Virus record (IMG/VR): IMGVR_UViG_3300011013_000087
Span: 1 to 24,916 of that record
From: a virus
DNA: 24,916 nucleotides
Direction: 5' to 3' (one strand)
The notes under the pieces are model-generated. The model did not search any database. It saw only the letters and a list, made by a program, of their open reading frames with translations, and was not told where the DNA came from. Of the stretch, positions 1 to 24,200 are shown piece by piece. How positions within the stretch are numbered: the first letter of the stretch is position 1; each line of letters starts with the position of its first letter. A program made the translations under genes and the position numbers.

Positions 1-2085
1 GTATTATTATCTGCTGTGCTATAATATCCAGCTTTAGTTCCTAACGTAGTAAGTCCAGCACCTGTTACATTTGTGAATCCTGACTGAAATCCAACCGCTG
101 TATTTTCTGCTGAAGTGGTAGTATTTGCAAGTGCGCTTCCCCCCAGAGCCGTGTTGTAAGAACCCGTTGTAGTTAAACCACCAGAATCTTGACCAAAAAA
201 TGAATTAAGTGTACCAGTTGATACGGCATCACCTGATAATTGACCAACAAATGTGTTAGAAGCTCCTCTACATAGTAATCCTGCGTTTTTACCTACGGCT
301 GTGTTACTACTAGCACTGTTAGTAGTCGCGCCATATAATGCTTGATAACCGATAGCTGTGTTAGCTGTACCAGTAACATTATAATGTCCTGAGTACATAC
401 CAACATATACATTTTGTGCTTCTTCATTGTTGCTATCTGATACTTGATAATAACCTGACTGATAACCTATAGCTATAGATCTATCACCTACTGTTTCATT
501 TCCTAATGCCTGCGTACCGATAGCTATATTAAATCTACCGATTGTCATATCCTCAGCGGCTTTATATCCAAGTGCCACATCGTCTAAGCCTGTTGTAATT
601 GAATCTCCTGCATAACTACCAATTAAAGTGTTAGCTAAACCTGTGCTTACAGATGTACCAGCATGGTATCCAACGGCTACGTTTTCAGCATTTGTAGCAG
701 TTGTAAAGTTTTGTGTTCCTAAAGCATTTCTACCGATAGCAACACTTTTACTACCTTTAGTATCACCTTCTAGTGCATTTTTACCTATTGCTACATTGTC
801 AGAACCAACAGTCAAAACACCTAAAGCATCATTTCCAACGGCAGTATTTTGACCCCCTGTCGTAATAGAATCTCCTGCTTCACTACCGATAAGGGTATTC
901 TGAGTGCCTGTAGTCGTTGCTTGTCCAGCTTCATATCCTACGGCTGTGTTATGACTATCTGTAGCAGTCGTAAAGTTTTGCGTTCCTAAAGCTGATCTAC
1001 CGATAGCTACTGACTTAGATCCTAATGTATCACTTGTAAGAGCATTATAACCTATTGCAACATTTCTATCTGCGTCAGTTAATGCGTCACCTGCATTACT
1101 ACCAAGTATTGTATTCTGCACTCCTGTTGTGATTGCTTTACCAGAGTCAGAACCAATTGCTGTGTTGTAACTACTTGTAGAAGTCGTAAAGTTTTGAGCT
1201 TCAAGAGCCGAATGACCGACTGCTGTATTTTTACTTCCTTTAGTATCAGCACCTAAAGCACCTTGTCCAATTGCAACATTGTTGTCAGCGTCAGTTAAAG
1301 CATCACCAGCGAGGCCACCGATGAGGGTGTTGTTTACGCCTGTGGTGACATCTCCACCAGCCGCATGACCTACTGCTGTGTTATAGTTATCAACATCTGC
1401 ATTTTGATCTCTTAAAGCATTCATGCCGATAGCTACGTTGTAACGCCCTGTGTCTTCTGTAGACAAGGCATTTCTACCCATAGCTACGTTATTAAAACCT
1501 GTTGTAAGAGCGTCAGCCGCTAAAGCACCCACTATAGTATTGTCTGTGCCTGTGGTTACTGCCGTTCCTGCATCATATCCTATAGCTATATTGTAAGCGT
1601 TTGTTGCTGTTGTAAAGTTTTGTGTATCTAAAGCACCTACACCTATAGCAATATTCCTAGCACCTAACGTATCTGATGCAAGTGCGCTAATTCCAATAGC
1701 TACGTTAGAATTACCTGTAGTCATTGCTGAAAGAGAACTTTTACCCAATGCTGTATTATTAGATCCTGTTGTAATCGCATCACCAGATAGACCACCGATA
1801 AGGGTGTTGTTCACGGCTGTGGTTACTGCTACACCTGCATCATATCCAACTGCTGTATTATATGCTGCGGCTCCTGCATTTTGTACTTTTAAAGCACGAT
1901 AACCTATAGCTACACTTTCGCCATTTGCATCTTCAGTAGACAAGGCTTGATAACCTACAGCCACATTCCCATCACCAGTCGTAATTGCAGTACCAGCTTC
2001 GTCACCTACGGTTACGTTGTAGTTACCACCAGAAGCTATTGAGTTACCTGCGTTAACGCCAAGGCGTAGGTTGGATGTACCAGAA
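1..2085 (-). repeat. Two-level tandem repeat inside the fibre gene
   Basis: The DNA encodes a 14- to 16-residue basal repeat (about 42-48 bp). A larger repeat is superimposed on it. The marker TTTTG, part of the codons for the QN(F/A) motif, recurs at 709, 976, 1192, 1402, 1618 and 1879. The spacings are 267, 216, 210, 216 and 261 bp, all multiples of three. The larger unit is therefore about 70-72 residues, with longer units at both ends. Confidence 0.85.
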
Positions 2086-2591
2086 GTTGTGGAAGAATAA
2101 TCCCCCGTCACGGCTACATCTCCAGCAACAGTCAAATCGTCATCAACCAACAAGTCTACTACGTTAAGCGTAGCAAAGGCATCAACCATAGCCGCGCCAG
2201 AGCCTGCACCATCTGAGTAGACAGCCTTAGTTTGTCCCGCTGGAATTGTTATGTTGGCTCCAGATCCTTGAGATATAATAATGTTTTGAGAACCAGAGGT
2301 TGCGTTTTCAATAAACCACAATTTACTAACTGTGTTTGGCCCAATCGTAATTGTACAAGCAGAGTCTAAAGTTCCTGTATATTTCAAGAATATTGACCTA
2401 CCGGGGTCAGTTGCTCCATCCGCAATTGTAGTTGTATGCGTATCTGCGTTTGTTGTGATAGCCTCTGTGCCGTAACTAAACGCTTCTGCAATTAATTCTA
2501 AATTAGTGTTTGTCGTTGTACCCCATGTTCCAGACGCATCGCCCGTAGCCATCTCGTTTAGTCTGAGGTCATTCACATATGTACTTGCCAT
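1..2591 (-). CDS. Long phage tail-fibre protein with YadA-head-like repeats, truncated at the window edge
   Basis: The reading frame is open from an ATG at 2591 to the left edge, giving about 863 residues, and its C-terminus lies outside the window. The start has a good Shine-Dalgarno (TAAGGA) that contains the stop of the upstream gene. Residues 1 to about 165 form a non-repetitive N-terminal domain starting MASTYVNDLRLNEM, probably the virion-attachment part. From about residue 168 onward the protein is almost entirely 14- to 16-residue repeats of the type N-T-A-V/I-G-x-x-A-L/G with TTG turns, the pattern of the left-handed beta-roll in trimeric autotransporter heads (YadA/Hep_Hag). I infer a trimeric receptor-binding fibre or spike. 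Such phage proteins often end in a peptidase S74-type intramolecular chaperone, which would be beyond the edge. It is the last of a run of virion genes. The fibre-like architecture is clear, but the exact receptor role is inference. Confidence 0.85.
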   Translation of the reverse strand, partial: MASTYVNDLRLNEMATGDASGTWGTTTNTNLELIAEAFSYGTEAITTNADTHTTTIADGATDPGRSIFLKYTGTLDSACTITIGPNTVSKLWFIENATSGSQNIIISQGSGANITIPAGQTKAVYSDGAGSGAAMVDAFATLNVVDLLVDDDLTVAGDVAVTGDYSSTTSGTSNLRLGVNAGNSIASGGNYNVTVGDEAGTAITTGDGNVAVGYQALSTEDANGESVAIGYRALKVQNAGAAAYNTAVGYDAGVAVTTAVNNTLIGGLSGDAITTGSNNTALGKSSLSAMTTGNSNVAIGISALASDTLGARNIAIGVGALDTQNFTTATNAYNIAIGYDAGTAVTTGTDNTIVGALAADALTTGFNNVAMGRNALSTEDTGRYNVAIGMNALRDQNADVDNYNTAVGHAAGGDVTTGVNNTLIGGLAGDALTDADNNVAIGQGALGADTKGSKNTAVGHSALEAQNFTTSTSSYNTAIGSDSGKAITTGVQNTILGSNAGDALTDADRNVAIGYNALTSDTLGSKSVAIGRSALGTQNFTTATDSHNTAVGYEAGQATTTGTQNTLIGSEAGDSITTGGQNTAVGNDALGVLTVGSDNVAIGKNALEGDTKGSKSVAIGRNALGTQNFTTATNAENVAVGYHAGTSVSTGLANTLIGSYAGDSITTGLDDVALGYKAAEDMTIGRFNIAIGTQALGNETVGDRSIAIGYQSGYYQVSDSNNEEAQNVYVGMYSGHYNVTGTANTAIGYQALYGATTNSASSNTAVGKNAGLLCRGASNTFVGQLSGDAVSTGTLNSFFGQDSGGLTTTGSYNTALGGSALANTTTSAENTAVGFQSGFTNVTGAGLTTLGTKAGYYSTADNN

Positions 2592-18423: not shown

Positions 18424-20856
18424 CTATTTTCCTCTTTGTTTAAGTAATTCCCGTTCCATAGATGAATCTATGCGGGCCTTTGTTTGACGTTCTTGCGCCG
18501 CCAATCTCTGGTCAAACTGACGATCACGCATCGCCAAGCTCTGTGCATCAAGTTGTATCTTAGCCGCGTCCACTTCAGCATCCTTCTGTTCAGACTGAGC
18601 GCGAATCTGCAACTCTTTCTCTTTAAGCTGTACCAACGGATCAGGACCCTCTTGACCTTCACCCGATATCTGAGCCGATAACTGCTTAACCGTCTGCATA
18701 CCCTGCGCGACAATCTGAGCAATCATTGCTTCCATAGCCATTGGGTCTTGGGCCGTGGCCCCCTGTTGCTGCATCTGTGCCTGCGCTTGCTCAGTCGCCT
18801 CTATCTTAATATGCTCCAAAACATGCTTTTGTAACGCCATCGCAACAGGCGGTAAACTACCCACCATCGCTGACGTTCCAAAGACTAAGTGTGCCATAAT
18901 GTGCGCCTGATGATCCTGACCCTCAAACGCCGTTAACTGCAACATGTCTAACGCATCAATATTCTCTTGTGCAGGGTCCGTGGGCACAGGATCAGTGTCA
19001 GGAACCGCAACCATTATACGGTCTATATCCGTTACACCCAACGCTTCGTACATATCCCTATATACCTCGTGCATATTATGTAACTGAGGCGCCGCCGCAG
19101 CTAACTGCATTTTAGACTGCGCTAACAAAATACGCTGGGATTGACTAAACACATTCGGATTTGACACAGGAATAACATCTACCCTGTCATCAAAATCACT
19201 CGCCATAATACTCGAATTGTCACCCGCGACAGAATATGGATACTCCTGCGGTAAACTCTCCGACATAACCCGCGCAAGTATCTTAAACTCAACACGCATC
19301 GCATAATGCAATCTCTTATGTACAGCCGACATGACCCGCGAGCCTTGTTCCAACATCGCCATAGTGGTTCCAACAGCAGCTTGGTCATTGCCATCGCCAA
19401 CCTTCATATCGGTTATCGTAGCAAATCTCTGTCCAGCTTGAACCACAAAACCTAGTAAATTAAACAAGGTTGCGTCTGGACCCTTAAATGGCAGCGGCAT
19501 AAGGCTGTCACGAATAGCCCCTCCGGGAGCATCCACATCGCGGAACTCACCGGGCTGAAGCGGATCATCGTCGTCTCTGATCCGTAGTCCGCGGGCCTTG
19601 AAACCCGCTGGGAGGTTGGACAACGTACCAGCGTCAATTAACTGCCTCAGTGCCGCCGTGGCGGTTCGTGACAACCCGCCAATAGTGTGTATTAAACCCA
19701 ATCCATAAAACCCAAATCCCGGTAAAAACTTGTAGTGTACAAAATATTGTATCTTACGTTTTTTCTCATCATCTTCGAGATAATTACGCCGTATTGCTAA
19801 AACTTGCCCATTATCTTGCGATATTGTGACAACATAAGGAACCTTAATCCCCGTCTCTTCGCCATCTTCGTCCCTGTCTTCATAACCCTCTAAATCCAAA
19901 TCAACGTGACACTCAAGTATCGTACAGTCATAATCAATATCATTAGGTTCAAAACCCTCGATCTTTGACGCTTGTTCGCTGACTTCACTTAATTCTGCCT
20001 GAGAAGGTATAACCTCCTCGTCTAAATAAAATCCAGATACTTGTTTTTTGCGTAAATCGTTCAACGACATGCGTATGACTTGCGTAATATTAGGACATGT
20101 ATCCAAATCCGATGTTTCATACGGTACAACAAGGTTCTCCGCAGGCACAAATTTACTTACCGCACGACACAACGTCTCGTCATAATACACTTTCTTAAAG
20201 GTACTTCCCGCCAACGGTAAGTAAAACAACATCTGATCCATGTCAGGAGTGTAATCCTCCATAACATTTGTAATGTAATAATTCATAAACTGCTTGACAC
20301 GTTGCGATTGTGCCACTTTTTCCACAGTTTCCTGCCCCATAACCTGCGTTTTTACAGGTCCACTAGGAGGTAATAACTCATTAAACGCCTGTGCTTGGAA
20401 TTGTGTCGCTGCTTCCGCCAGTAACGGATGAGTTACACCAGAGGCTCCACGAAAAGGCTCCGTCCGTTCCGTATGCGTAAATCCTAGTAGTTCTAATCCA
20501 TTAGCATAAGTGTCTTCCCACTCCTGCCGACTAGACTTATTGGCATCATATTCACCCAATAAATCACTCGATATCCTACCTAACTCACGATCTGGTATCT
20601 CTTCGGCAAGATTCATATAAAAATCACCCCCCATACCACGGGCATCAGAAGGTTCAAAATCTACTGTAACACTACCATCCTCATCAGAGGTTATCTCAAT
20701 ATTATCTACATTCTCCGCTTCTACCATAGCCAAAACGTTGTTCTGACTATCGGGAAGCTCTACCTCAAGCTCCGCTCTTAGATCTTCTTCATCCAACTGA
20801 GAAGGAACCCCAGTATCCATCAAACTTGTAAAACCTCTGTTCTCTTTTTCAGCCAT
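18424..20856 (-). CDS. Portal protein (short-tailed phage type)
   Basis: The protein has 810 residues. An acidic N-terminal region (1-100, EEDLRAELEVELPD and DGSVTVDFEPSDARG) is followed by the portal core: RTEPFRGASGVTHPLLAEAA, FQAQAFNELLPPSGPVKTQV, YITNVMEDYTPDMDQMLFYL, then KKVYYDETL, VPAENLVVPYE and, later, AALRQLIDAGTLSNLPAGFK. The C-terminus (from about 700) is Gln/Ala-rich helix (QAQAQMQQQGATAQ) typical of a barrel-like extension. The size and motifs match portal proteins of P22/SU10-like podoviruses found in marine phages. It forms the dodecameric DNA entry vertex. A strong Shine-Dalgarno, TAGGAGG, precedes the start, 14 bp after TerL. Identity is well supported. Confidence 0.88.
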   Translation of the reverse strand: MAEKENRGFTSLMDTGVPSQLDEEDLRAELEVELPDSQNNVLAMVEAENVDNIEITSDEDGSVTVDFEPSDARGMGGDFYMNLAEEIPDRELGRISSDLLGEYDANKSSRQEWEDTYANGLELLGFTHTERTEPFRGASGVTHPLLAEAATQFQAQAFNELLPPSGPVKTQVMGQETVEKVAQSQRVKQFMNYYITNVMEDYTPDMDQMLFYLPLAGSTFKKVYYDETLCRAVSKFVPAENLVVPYETSDLDTCPNITQVIRMSLNDLRKKQVSGFYLDEEVIPSQAELSEVSEQASKIEGFEPNDIDYDCTILECHVDLDLEGYEDRDEDGEETGIKVPYVVTISQDNGQVLAIRRNYLEDDEKKRKIQYFVHYKFLPGFGFYGLGLIHTIGGLSRTATAALRQLIDAGTLSNLPAGFKARGLRIRDDDDPLQPGEFRDVDAPGGAIRDSLMPLPFKGPDATLFNLLGFVVQAGQRFATITDMKVGDGNDQAAVGTTMAMLEQGSRVMSAVHKRLHYAMRVEFKILARVMSESLPQEYPYSVAGDNSSIMASDFDDRVDVIPVSNPNVFSQSQRILLAQSKMQLAAAAPQLHNMHEVYRDMYEALGVTDIDRIMVAVPDTDPVPTDPAQENIDALDMLQLTAFEGQDHQAHIMAHLVFGTSAMVGSLPPVAMALQKHVLEHIKIEATEQAQAQMQQQGATAQDPMAMEAMIAQIVAQGMQTVKQLSAQISGEGQEGPDPLVQLKEKELQIRAQSEQKDAEVDAAKIQLDAQSLAMRDRQFDQRLAAQERQTKARIDSSMERELLKQRGK

Positions 20857-20870
20857 AAAGACCTCCTAAC

Positions 20871-22331
20871 CTAATAGTATACTCGTACTGTAGCAGAGTT
20901 TTCTTCATTTTCCCAGTCATCTGTTGGTAATTGTACAAAATTACCCTGCCTGTATCTCATTAACGCCTGCGTCATGCTATCTACTAAATCATCATATTCA
21001 CCGTTTGGGAAGGCCGCAACCTCTTCTATTAACTCATCTGCAAACGTTTTATCGGGAGCCCACACCATCCCCGCTTCAAATAACGGCGAAACAGAGTGGA
21101 CTCGCGAAACCTTATCATTACCCCTGCTTGGAGTAAAGTTAACTACAGGTATTCCTACATTACGCAACTCGTGCGTCAAGGGCATACCACTCGCCTTGGC
21201 CTCTATAATTACCGTGTCGGGGTCCCAAAACTTGTACTCCTCTAACGCAATTGCTTTTAACTCAGGAAAATCCCATCTACCCTTCTTGCTGTCAAGTAAA
21301 ATTAAATTAGGACCCATACCATCCACAGGATAAAACACACCCCATGTCGTAATCGCAGAATAATCCGCAGTCTCCTTCTTACTAAACGCCGTATCATAAC
21401 TCTGGATCACATACTCTAAACTAGGGACAACCTCCTTTTCCCACATCTGCCACCACTCACGACGAATAATCGCATTCTCCTCACCCGTCGGATTCTGCTG
21501 GTACTGTGCATTCCACTTACTCGGAGGAATCGACGCCTTAACAGATATTAAATCATCCAAAGACCAATACTCAGGCCAACACGGAGTATCATCGTCAAAC
21601 AAAGCAGGTAATTCAACAATCTCCCATTGATCCGCTAAAGGATCTTTAGCCATCGCCCGTATCAACTGACCCGTCATATCTTTCTCAGACCAGCGCGTTT
21701 GTACCAAAACAATACTCCCACCCGGCTGGAGCCTCTGTCGGGGGCCCCCAGTGTACCAATCCCACGCATCATCAAACCCAGTGTTCGACATCGCCGTCTG
21801 CTCCGAATGCGGATCATCAATAATTACTAAATCACCACCACGACCCGCTAAGTTCGAGCCAACACCAACCGCATAGTACATCCCACCAGCACTCGTGTCC
21901 CACCGACCAGACGCCTTGCTGTCCGCAGCTAACTTAACATCAGGAAAAACTTCACGATACTCGTCAGCATCTAAAAGGTTCTTCGTCTTCCGTCCAAAGC
22001 CAACAGCTAACTCAGTCGTGTGCGTCGCCTGAATAATCTTCATCTTCGGGTTCTTGCCCATCATCCACGCAGGAAACAAATAAGACGCAAACTCACTCTT
22101 CGTGTGCCGCGGAGCCATGTTGATAATCAATCTCTTTAACTCGCCGCTCGCGACACGTTCTAACTTTTCTGCGATTATTCTATGATGTCTTCCTGCAATA
22201 AAATCAGGCCACATAGTTTTTACAAATGTTAAAAATTTTTCTTGGCAAGCTTCGTTCTTTTCAAGCTGCGCGAGCCTCAACTGAAGCTTCAAGGCTTTAT
22301 CTTCATAGGCTAAGTTTTGTGCGGCTACCAT
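20871..22331 (-). CDS. terL: Terminase large subunit
   Basis: With the ATG at 22331 the protein has 486 residues. AGGGA lies 5 nt upstream of this ATG, whereas a start 16 codons earlier has no ribosome site. The ATPase domain has a Walker A-like APRHTKSE (73-80), a Walker B LVIIDDP (168-174) and a coupling motif QTRWSEKDMTG (211-221). The nuclease domain has SYDTAFSKKETADYS (Asp313), VIIEAKASG and DDLVDSM acidic positions that chelate metal. This is the motor and endonuclease that cuts and packages phage DNA through the portal encoded next. No small terminase is visible upstream in this window; it may be a diverged gene or encoded elsewhere. Confidence 0.95.
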   Translation of the reverse strand: MVAAQNLAYEDKALKLQLRLAQLEKNEACQEKFLTFVKTMWPDFIAGRHHRIIAEKLERVASGELKRLIINMAPRHTKSEFASYLFPAWMMGKNPKMKIIQATHTTELAVGFGRKTKNLLDADEYREVFPDVKLAADSKASGRWDTSAGGMYYAVGVGSNLAGRGGDLVIIDDPHSEQTAMSNTGFDDAWDWYTGGPRQRLQPGGSIVLVQTRWSEKDMTGQLIRAMAKDPLADQWEIVELPALFDDDTPCWPEYWSLDDLISVKASIPPSKWNAQYQQNPTGEENAIIRREWWQMWEKEVVPSLEYVIQSYDTAFSKKETADYSAITTWGVFYPVDGMGPNLILLDSKKGRWDFPELKAIALEEYKFWDPDTVIIEAKASGMPLTHELRNVGIPVVNFTPSRGNDKVSRVHSVSPLFEAGMVWAPDKTFADELIEEVAAFPNGEYDDLVDSMTQALMRYRQGNFVQLPTDDWENEENSATVRVYY

Positions 22332-22790
22332 AGGGGTCCCTAAACAATATATGCGACTTTCTACCCTTATATAGGACATATTTTATCAATATGAAATATC
22401 TAATAAATATTTGTGAGAAACATGGCATAAACCCCGCTGCCAGATCCGCCGTGGTCGCCGCGCGAAAAACCGCGATTTATCGTTTAAAAACAACGGTTTA
22501 GCCTCTATTGGCGGAATCCTAAAAAAGAGCTGCAAACAAGCTGCACAGTTGCAGCAGCTGCACCGCCCAAACAAAGCGCAGGCAATCCCCTTCGCTTTAC
22601 CAGTTAACCACGGCCCACGGTCCACGCATCAAGCGCCACGGACCACGCATCGAATCCCTAGAGATAAGCCAAGAGGTTAACGGTTTGCGAACTGGCGCCC
22701 ACGGCCCACGGCCCACGGTACGTTTTAAACGGGCTAGGGGCGGCAAGGCGGGGCTTGTTTAACTCTTTTAATCTAATACTAGCGGGCAAT
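22332..22790 (-). other. Gene-poor region upstream of terL, probable regulatory/packaging/origin region
   Basis: About 460 bp without a credible gene lie between a terminator and terL. From 22332 to about 22430 it is AT-rich with several TATA-like motifs on the minus strand (for example TATATAAGG), so a terL promoter is likely here, but I cannot choose one -35/-10 pair. From about 22430 to 22760 it is much more GC-rich. It has repeated GCTGCA/TGCAGC elements with a perfect hairpin at 22540-22555 (stem GCTGCA, loop CAGT), an AAACCG/CGGTTT inverted pair near 22467-22500, and tandem CCACGG heptads. A 79-residue ORF in it (22386-22625) looks spurious. Confidence 0.6.
22608..22718. repeat. Interrupted tandem CCACGG-type heptamer repeats
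   Basis: Copies of CCACGG or CCACGC occur at 22608, 22615, 22622, 22636, 22643, 22699, 22706 and 22713, mostly in 7-bp register. Two of them continue as CCACGCATC (22622-22630 and 22643-22651), making a 21-bp direct repeat. Another three are strictly tandem at 22699-22718. Confidence 0.85.
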
Positions 22791-22817
22791 AAAAAAGGCC
22801 GCTCTAGGCGGCCTTAA
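22791..22817 (-). terminator. Rho-independent terminator of the 145-residue gene
   Basis: On the minus strand AAGGCCGC (22808-22815) pairs with GCGGCCTT (22795-22802) around a 5-nt loop and is followed by TTTTTT. It ends the cassette before the terL leader. Confidence 0.9.
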
Positions 22818-22840: not shown

Positions 22841-23278
22841 TTAATCGTCGTTTAAGCTTATCTGACCCTTAATAAAAGCGCCGCTCAATTCTTCGCGAAT
22901 AATTTCACGAATATCATCTAACTGATTTGGCGCATCGGTGATTTCATCATCTAAGCCGCATATGCTCCTAATCTCATCGGACCAGTCGTTTATATCAAAA
23001 TCGTCGCGGGCAATTTCTGAAATCTCGCTTGAAAATTCCGAGATATCAAAATCATCCAAAGCTTCGCGCGCTTTGTCTTCTGCGATCAATTCCACGTCAT
23101 AAGCCTCTTGATATTCGTACTTGCTGACAACGGGTCTTAATAAATCGGCAAGCGCGTTTAATTGCTCATTGCGCTCAGTTTGTAAATCTGAAAGGCGCTT
23201 TTCTAATTGCTCATTGCGCGCTTTTAAATCCGCAATTTCTGACTCTTCTTTTTTTTGGTCTAATTCTAAATAATCCAT
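22841..23278 (-). CDS. Acidic coiled-coil protein of unknown function
   Basis: The protein has 145 residues. Residues 1-50 are a heptad-like charged helix (EESEIADLKARNEQLEKRL). The remainder is very acidic, with a repeated motif: DDFDISEFSSEISEIARD and DDFDINDWSDEIRSICGLDD, two copies of DDFDI about 17 residues apart. A third acidic helix follows (LDDIREIIREELSG). There is no membrane segment and one Cys. The gene is a self-contained cassette: sigma70-like promoter at 23325-23353, leader hairpin, GGAAAG ribosome site and a downstream terminator. A negatively charged, DNA-mimic or protein-binding role is conceivable but unproven. No family is recognised. Confidence 0.7.
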   Translation of the reverse strand: MDYLELDQKKEESEIADLKARNEQLEKRLSDLQTERNEQLNALADLLRPVVSKYEYQEAYDVELIAEDKAREALDDFDISEFSSEISEIARDDFDINDWSDEIRSICGLDDEITDAPNQLDDIREIIREELSGAFIKGQISLNDD

Positions 23279-23412: not shown

Positions 23413-23499
23413 TTAAAAGTAAGTAAACGGGATTAAAACAATAATATATAATATTAGAATTAAACCTAACGTTGCTAAGACATAAATTAAGTTTTTCAT
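23413..23499 (-). CDS. 28-residue hydrophobic peptide coupled to the Cys-rich protein
   Basis: The sequence is MKNLIYVLATLGLILILYII followed by VLIPFTYF, essentially one membrane segment with a Lys near the N-terminus. The ATG overlaps the TGA of the upstream gene (ATGA), and the stop lies 26 bp before a terminator, so the reading frame ends cleanly inside the same transcript. Such coupled mini-ORFs are often real in phages, but its shortness limits certainty. A membrane effector or a toxin-like peptide is conceivable; no family is recognised. Confidence 0.5.
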   Translation of the reverse strand: MKNLIYVLATLGLILILYIIVLIPFTYF

Positions 23500-24200
23500 T
23501 CGGCCCCCAAATCCCCCGCTATATGATGCCGAAGAACGGCGGCGGGATGCAATGTTTTAGAAAAGGCCCGCAGTTGATCCGCGTCACTTAACTCTTGCTC
23601 TTGATCGCTAGTATCTTGCCAATGAATAGCGACGTTACCGCCGCCCGCGTAACATCCGCCTTTTTCATTAGTCGCGGCAAGCTTTTTTTGGGAACCGTGC
23701 GCAGTAAATCCGATAATATAAGCGCGATCTAAGCGAGCGCATAACGGGTTAAAATTGCCGCAATTAAAGCAATTAGATTTTTCCCTATATTCGGCGGGGC
23801 ATCGAACAAATTGGATTTCATCTACAACCTTGTTTCTTTTATTGTTCCAAAAATCCTCTTTAACAACCGTAACAACGGGCACGGCGGGCGCCATCTTTTT
23901 AGTAATAACCGCCTCTTCTATTGTATCGGCGCTATAGTTAATTGTGGTTTTATTAGGTGCAAGCTTAGCGGCCCAATTAATCGGGTTAAAATGCGTATAA
24001 GTCATCGCATGGCCCCGTTTTGGTTTACTATCTAAAACGGCGTTTAAATAATCTTGATCGATTTTATTAGTGCCGCATCCGCTCCCATTTAAAGCGCATG
24101 AAGTGGGGCAAGTATTAAACTTGTTTTGATTGCCCGCGCGATATGTAACCGCGCAACCCTTTGTTTTTTTACTTCTAGATAATTCAACAGTTTTAAGCAT
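23496..24200 (-). CDS. Conserved Cys-rich phage protein, unknown function
   Basis: The protein has 234 residues with Cys at 16, 31, 35, 42 and then 134, 144, 147, 154 and 183. The first cluster is NTCPTSCALNGSGCG; the second is VRCPAEYREKSNCFNCGNF with CARLDR; the last lies in GGCYAGGGNVAIHW. Two four-Cys groups suggest zinc or iron-sulfur sites. The core TYTHFNPINWAAKLAPNKTTINYSA is also strongly patterned. I recall relatives in marine phages and resemblance to the gp88-type family, for which no function is known to me. The gene overlaps the small acidic gene upstream by 8 nt and the 28-residue peptide by 4 nt. A metal- or radical-type enzymatic role is speculative. Confidence 0.75.
   Translation of the reverse strand: MLKTVELSRSKKTKGCAVTYRAGNQNKFNTCPTSCALNGSGCGTNKIDQDYLNAVLDSKPKRGHAMTYTHFNPINWAAKLAPNKTTINYSADTIEEAVITKKMAPAVPVVTVVKEDFWNNKRNKVVDEIQFVRCPAEYREKSNCFNCGNFNPLCARLDRAYIIGFTAHGSQKKLAATNEKGGCYAGGGNVAIHWQDTSDQEQELSDADQLRAFSKTLHPAAVLRHHIAGDLGAE

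Follow-up and report, generated by a model that had tools for sequence, protein, structure and literature searches.

A hypervariable array of 7-bp repeats upstream of terL as a candidate packaging site in a family of marine and freshwater phages

Results

Organization of the region upstream of terL

The window, i.e. the whole stretch of DNA analysed, is a virus record of 24,916 bases whose minus strand carries the main genes. The features around the large terminase gene terL are as follows.

18424-20856, minus strand: portal gene
20871-22331, minus strand: terL, terminase large subunit, 486 aa (phrog_38, E 4.9e-105; start set by conservation)
22334-22340, no strand assigned: GGGNCCC dyad adjoining the start of terL; conservation extends over the window family and the HTVC027P group
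22341-22402, minus strand: AT-rich stretch before terL, promoter-like as judged from sequence
22403-22426, minus strand: anchor C, GCCATGTTTCTCACAAATATTTAT, conserved and strictly linked to terL (alignment; 107/107 loci that extend 300 bp or more past anchor C)
22498-22526, minus strand: place where most relatives have anchor B (GGGNCCC..TATCGGGTCA); the sequence of the window has diverged here (alignment)
22527-22607, no strand assigned: variable part with GCTGCA/TGCAGC inverted repeats, unconserved even in L010, the closest relative
22608-22718, minus strand: core array of heptads, grouped 3+2 and 3 on a single 7-bp register; read towards terL, the eight units are CCGTGG/GCGTGG
22719-22726, minus strand: conserved AAAACGTA block directly before the array (alignment of relatives)
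22757-22764, minus strand: anchor A, AGTTAAAC, a conserved sequence that bounds the region on the left (alignment of 49 relatives, 26 of the 49 rows)
22795-22815, minus strand: hairpin resembling an intrinsic terminator, after the upstream gene; same kind of hairpin at the same place in the aligned relatives
22841-23278, minus strand: upstream gene, 145 aa, no match in PHROGs and none in Pfam above the cut-off
23496-24200, minus strand: gene of a DUF7227 protein (E 8.6e-31)

The alignment of relatives placed the likely start of terL at 22331, adjoining a conserved RCCCCTATG. The order of blocks in the window family is terminator, AGTTAAAC, a GC-rich block, an AAAC-TA block, the array, GGGNCCC..TATCGGGTCA, a variable stretch and GGCTAGGGCCATGTTTCTCNCAAATATTTA (anchor C), followed by promoter-like AT-rich DNA and RCCCCTATG at the start of terL. 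No consensus promoter was reported in 22341-22402. The DUF7227 gene lies between terS and terL in the related genome G001 and has a homologue in the phage DSL-LC04, while none was detected in three HTVC-type genomes. At the far end of the window, a long open reading frame of short NTAVGYQAG-type repeats (3-2591, minus strand) looks tail-fibre- or adhesin-like by eye.

The heptad array of the window

An initial annotation, made from the sequence of the window, had drawn attention to eight CCACGG/CCACGC copies within about 110 bp, mostly in 7-bp register. All eight were found, on the plus strand at 22608, 22615, 22622, 22636, 22643, 22699, 22706 and 22713. The gaps between them are 7, 7, 14, 7, 56, 7 and 7 bp; every gap is a multiple of 7 and all eight copies share a single register, a stronger regularity than had been claimed. 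Read in the direction of terL the unit is CCGTGGN. Dinucleotide shuffling of 22430-22790 (n = 5000) yielded a mean of 0.49 copies with a maximum of 4, and eight were reached in none of the shuffles. One extra copy is present on the minus strand (22454-22449). The strongest lag-7 window of the entire record starts at 22587 (score 0.228, sd 0.04).

The annotation was also right about the surroundings of the repeats, which lie upstream of the minus-strand terL and after the terminator-like hairpin. GC content is about 0.50 compared with 0.35-0.42 just upstream, and the family mean is 0.59 in the region versus 0.46-0.50 around it. The absence of a credible gene was borne out as well: the only candidate is a mechanical 79-aa frame with a GTG start (22386-22625, minus strand) in a stretch where relatives are unalignable and no conserved frame was seen, and a hidden gene was rejected. 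The GCTGCA/TGCAGC hairpins stood as inverted repeats (about 22529-22566, e.g. 22540-22555) but not as a structure. As DNA, the 361-nt stretch folded only slightly better than its shuffles (z -1.78), and among 28 relatives no fold was consistently steadier than shuffles (mean z -0.6 and -0.85 for the two strands). Together with the lack of an Rfam match in the repeat region this led us to dismiss a structured RNA. Elsewhere in the window, near the capsid gene, Rfam reported the Mu-gpT-DE RNA RF03012 (8191-8244, minus strand; 64.6 bits, E 4.2e-13).

Period and consensus in relatives

Comparison of the gap among relatives, as the annotation had proposed, was based on a TerL search, which retrieved 80 IMG/VR loci whose TerL is 84% or more identical; the deposited records at 57-63% identity were HTVC027P, 023Pt_psg01, DSL-LC04 and HTVC023P. 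Anchor C was matched by 162 loci and not by another 31. Loci in which the left anchor was unrecognised or the contig ended too early were omitted, and removal of near-duplicates from the 74 loci with both anchors left 49 relatives.

In this set the array is 109-355 bp long (median 185) and lies between the upstream terminator and the putative terL promoter. Autocorrelation gave z values of 21, 20, 15, 15, 11 and 11 at lags of 7, 14, 21, 28, 35 and 42, so that the 7-bp period extends to at least 42 bp. The top lag was 7 in 32 and 14 in 7 of the 49 relatives. A cyclic 7-state model gained 0.133 bits per base compared with 0.001 for shuffled sequences, its consensus in the direction of terL being NCCGYGR, and the forward orientation scored better in 44/49. 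The genome-wide strongest lag-7 window fell in the array in five of eight records (window, G001, G004, G005 and DSL-LC04); the lag-7 window of the array ranked fourth in G002 and G006, and the top window of G003, with its start about 490 bp ahead of terL, probably falls just past the array. Some members have weak arrays (L040, z 1.3; L043, z 1.8), and other periods occur, namely 11 and 15 bp in L085 and 12 bp in L254. In L254 five tandem copies of the 12-bp unit GGATCCTTAGCA are located 420 bp upstream of terL.

DSL-LC04 is a phage from a freshwater metagenome with a TerL 58% identical to that of the window. In its clade, defined by TerL identity of at least 76% to DSL-LC04, lags 7 and 14 were the two top lags in all nine loci with enough DNA. 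An independent fit to seven DSL-clade loci recovered period 7 only, with 0.126 bits per base (other periods among 5-12 at most 0.044) and the consensus NCCGTGG. Furthermore, after training on window-family loci, a heptad model scored 9/9 held-out DSL-clade loci at z 6.5-14.8. For the other groups we entered 25 loci with 54-66% TerL identity and the first 40 of 80 HTVC027P loci, which were scored if 600 bp upstream were available (23 and 35, respectively). The same model exceeded z 3 in 3/23 loci of the 54-66% group, in 1/10 of the group at about 30% and in 0/35 HTVC027P loci. The reverse complement of the DSL arrays had a mean z of 8.0 versus 10.2 forward, the forward orientation being better in 8/9; it scores high because the heptad unit is close to its own complement. 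By the stricter measure of at least four SCGYGR units that share a register inside 120 bp, 13/64 window-family and 5/9 DSL-clade loci were positive and none of 113 loci from three other groups, with an expectation of 0.0 in each group.

Arrays that cannot be aligned thus share one consensus, which suggests selection on the unit and its register. The common register, the consensus found in two distant clades, the preferred orientation and the lack of a consistent RNA structure give good support, at the level of DNA, to the annotation's idea of an iteron-like array, which would bind a protein.

The HTVC023P/HTVC027P pelagiphages resemble the window family in a homologous TerL, a noncoding gap and the GGGNCCC dyad, which occurs in 72/72 HTVC027P-type and 71/71 window-family loci. 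They differ in that heptads are missing upstream of terL, where short GC-rich hairpins are found instead. With frequencies of 6/9 in the DSL clade, 2/40 in the 54-66% group and 1/10 in the most distant loci, the dyad was ruled out as a universal element. The HTVC027P group, whose terL is about 60% identical, thus supplies part of the counter-evidence that the annotation had named, namely relatives that share terL and lack the repeats. Yet the HTVC027P group also has a different small terminase subunit (TerS), so its members limit the feature to one TerS lineage rather than refute it.

Turnover of the array

About 99% identity in terL can go along with unalignable arrays. L010 (TerL 99%) has a strongly different array, while most 50-bp bins of its terL are 92-100% identical to the window. 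The loci L016 and L017 are 99.7% identical in terL DNA with upstream regions only 60% alike; L074/L083, L021/L032 and L045/L057 likewise combine high terL identity with divergent upstream DNA. Other pairs (L070/L071, L024/L029 and others) are 99.4-99.7% identical in terL and 100% identical upstream. Turnover is thus episodic. Upstream genes also change in some of the pairs, which marks the region as a recombination joint, and in L074/L083 the array was swapped between conserved flanks. A scan of genome contigs for satellite or host copies of anchor C returned 2 MAG contigs only, one of them as long (21061 b) as an IMG/VR contig that the set already included, and this candidate was dropped.

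Fast turnover and the additional periods of 11, 12 and 15 bp would fit a neutral minisatellite, in which slipped-strand copying yields functionless tandem 7-mers in noncoding DNA. Such drift would hardly produce one consensus and one orientation in two clades with unalignable arrays, nor place the genome-wide maximum of period 7 in the array, or rank it fourth, in most of the records, nor keep the flanking blocks conserved. From the shared consensus and orientation we judge this explanation unlikely, and markedly so.

Array type and TerS

The window is too short to hold terS, and TerS (Terminase_2) was found in 15/16 records searched. With TerS of DSL-LC04 as reference, identity is 55-62% in 11/11 window-family records and 57-93% in four DSL-clade records. 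Identity drops to 30-41% for 15 records of other groups that had been brought in by TerL similarity, and to 33-34% for HTVC027P and HTVC023P. 023Pt_psg01 gave no match in this search and 25% in tblastn. Among 33 records that contributed to these values, a further 14, mostly short contigs, gave no TerS match. All aligned carriers of the array have a similar N-terminal TerS segment, which is different in non-carriers. In L257 and L268 terS directly precedes terL and there is no array.

Among the genes compared, TerS separated the two groups most clearly, with 56-62% identity to DSL-LC04 in carriers versus 25-35% in non-carriers, in a comparison that rests on few independent clades. The control genes did not: the corresponding figures were 70-73% vs 69-73% for the major capsid protein, 57-58% vs 55-61% for TerL and 49-51% vs 46% for the portal. 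PolA, UvrD, primase and their neighbours are also closer among carriers, to a smaller degree than TerS (PolA 55-58% vs 46-50%, primase 50-52% vs 26-44%). Because replication genes track the array too, co-inheritance of the early region is a confounder. The most telling case is the L282/L290 group. Its primase (47%) and PolA (53%) are near the 50-58% of carriers, its TerS has only 34-36% identity, and CCGYGR heptads are absent, with a weak period 7 (z 2.9 and 3.8). In place of the heptads L282 and L290 have two copies, and the related L244 three copies, of TGTGACATNNTGTCGCAGG, which among the loci compared was found only upstream of terL.

The link to replication genes raises the question whether the heptads serve a phage initiator as iterons, with the AT-rich stretch around anchor C and the promoter as unwinding element. 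The annotation had listed an origin among its options. A GC-rich array of short tandem direct repeats does adjoin AT-rich DNA, as in iteron origins. In addition, the window and six relatives show a rise in the GC3 skew of coding sequence at terL: values lie between -0.16 and -0.02 over the preceding 5 kb and between +0.22 and +0.51 over the following 5 kb, the window's own value before terL being blurred because the short record was treated as circular. The positive skew covers the first 5 kb from terL (window 20871-22331; terL/portal of G001-G006) and then falls. However, the skew is highest inside terL, and among 11 records the step was restricted to these seven of the window family; it was absent from DSL-LC04 (W01), which has heptads, and from the HTVC genomes, in which sign changes lie elsewhere. 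The array also follows primase and PolA less closely than TerS, as L282/L290 illustrate. We therefore regard an origin as possible but doubtful.

parS-type sites downstream of the array

Palindromes of the parS type, TGTTTCACGTGAAACA / TGTTCCACGTGGAACA, often exact and paired, were located 44-117 bp after anchor C and before terL in L014, L019-L023, L036, L079 and others, and in L238, L240 and L242 of the DSL clade. None was detected inside terL, which served as control, and G001, G004 and G006 have no other sites in the record.

The omega protein of plasmid pSM19035, of the ribbon-helix-helix type, binds heptad operators/parS, 7-bp units near promoters. The array of the phages resembles these in unit length and location near promoters; it differs in sequence and in being hypervariable between relatives. 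By analogy, a phage or host protein of the ribbon-helix-helix or ParB type could occupy the heptads to repress, activate or tether the DNA, i.e. the region might serve late-operon control or partition. The array does lie upstream of a promoter-like stretch, and many carriers have exact or near parS sites between anchor C and terL (59/108 loci; 36/76 and 3/11). On the other hand, the core array of the window ends about 200 bp upstream of that stretch, and parS is absent from the window and from about half of the carriers. ParB_N was detected in just 1/16 genomes (E 1.1e-7), one without parS, which spoke against a phage-encoded ParB. When the ORFs of G001 were compared with DSL-LC04 and the HTVC genomes for a carrier-specific DNA-binding protein other than TerS, the DUF7227 protein and replication genes came up, and no known regulator; only TerS and the DUF7227 protein were noticed as carrier-only candidates in a search run without ribbon-helix-helix families. 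We hold a control or partition site to be a tentative alternative with a low probability.

Contig ends around the array

Of the contigs with a length of 30 kb or more, 10/11 extend across the region, as do all five that reach 40 kb. Among the matches listed, contig ends within 500 bp of anchor C were more frequent upstream (32/115) than downstream (6/115), spread over 9-468 bp with no single end point. The excess in the array is better explained by the sharp sequence divergence there. Thus a cos site with fixed ends, one of the two packaging sites that the annotation had considered, is disfavored by the crossing contigs and the scatter of the ends, while the other, a pac site, is favored since array type follows TerS best.

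Discussion

We give about even chances to the view that the region is a pac-type packaging-initiation site recognised by TerS. Several observations point this way. A noncoding array lies directly upstream of terL, with anchor C preceding terL at every one of the 107 loci. Array type follows TerS best, while capsid, portal and TerL do not separate the groups, and at the N-terminus of TerS carriers resemble one another but not the non-carriers. The heptad model finds all nine held-out DSL-clade arrays and none of the 35 HTVC027P loci. Known pac sites have short direct repeats, and the present array has compact direct repeats as at the pac sites of P1 and SPP1. Finally, long contigs cross the region and genomes of relatives were circularised, as expected for permuted or redundant ends; for 81 HTVC023P-type genomes, circularisation from overlaps has been reported (PMC9599517).

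The putative pac site would be a noncoding cis element between the end of the upstream module and the late operon, read by TerS to start packaging of the concatemer. Several TerS subunits, each with an N-terminal domain of the HTH type, would bind the CCGYGRN register co-operatively, so that number and spacing of the units may matter more than any one heptad. TerL, recruited next, would cut for the first time close by, perhaps at or near the conserved blocks B and C; headful packaging would follow and leave no fixed ends. What the sequences show is the array with its register, common to two clades with related TerS, missing from phages with related TerL but other TerS types, and not marked by a sharp contig end; TerS binding, cutting, the position of the cut and the headful mode we infer.

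The closest parallel is pac of P1, with seven hexamers in two clusters, HEX4 and HEX3, within about 160 bp (PMC10028697). The present array likewise falls into two clusters of short direct repeats, its eight heptads (5 and 3) taking up 111 bp. In P1, however, the site is inside pacA and the hexamers are Dam sites, whereas the array is noncoding, upstream of terL, in 7-bp register and, in relatives, 4.4-5 kb from terS. The SPP1 pac (pacL-pacC-pacR in SPP1/SF6) comprises direct repeats in three sets, which overlap promoters. Shared with the present phages are the direct repeats in the vicinity of terminase promoters and a TerS matching Terminase_2; the SPP1 site overlaps the start of terS and has repeats of another type. 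Lambda cosB has three TerS sites (R1-R3) beside the cut site, and the heptads may likewise be repeated TerS-binding sites, but lambda has fixed cohesive ends and three sites only, while the contigs analysed here speak against fixed ends.

Some points argue against a pac site. In genomes of the window family terS is about 4.4-5 kb upstream of the array, while pac sites usually lie in or next to terS, as in P1 and SPP1. Replication proteins differ between carriers and non-carriers as well, although less so. Several arrays are weak (L040, L043), and strict units were confined to the 13/64 window-family loci mentioned above. The DNA-binding domain of SF6 TerS shows little sequence preference in vitro and box repeats were reported to be of little weight (PMC4737164). 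Because a period of 7 bp does not match the helical repeat of DNA, the register is not explained by simple wrapping.

A more speculative extension, to which we assign a small probability, is a packaging site that evolves like a centromere. Slippage and phage recombination would replace the letters of the units, while the 7-bp register and a loose NCCGYGR would be kept because a multi-subunit TerS, as ring or filament, reads spacing and number rather than a single sequence. In many carriers this site would be paired with a host-type parS that could tie packaging or late transcription to the ParB of the host.

A literature search, with most subscription journals outside its coverage, found no report of this array. 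To our knowledge, it is poorly understood how headful phages choose their own DNA. The recombination joint upstream of terL bears on module exchange among these marine and freshwater phages. If the array is a TerS site, its many natural variants with constant spacing and changing letters would make a putative recognition rule readable from sequence.
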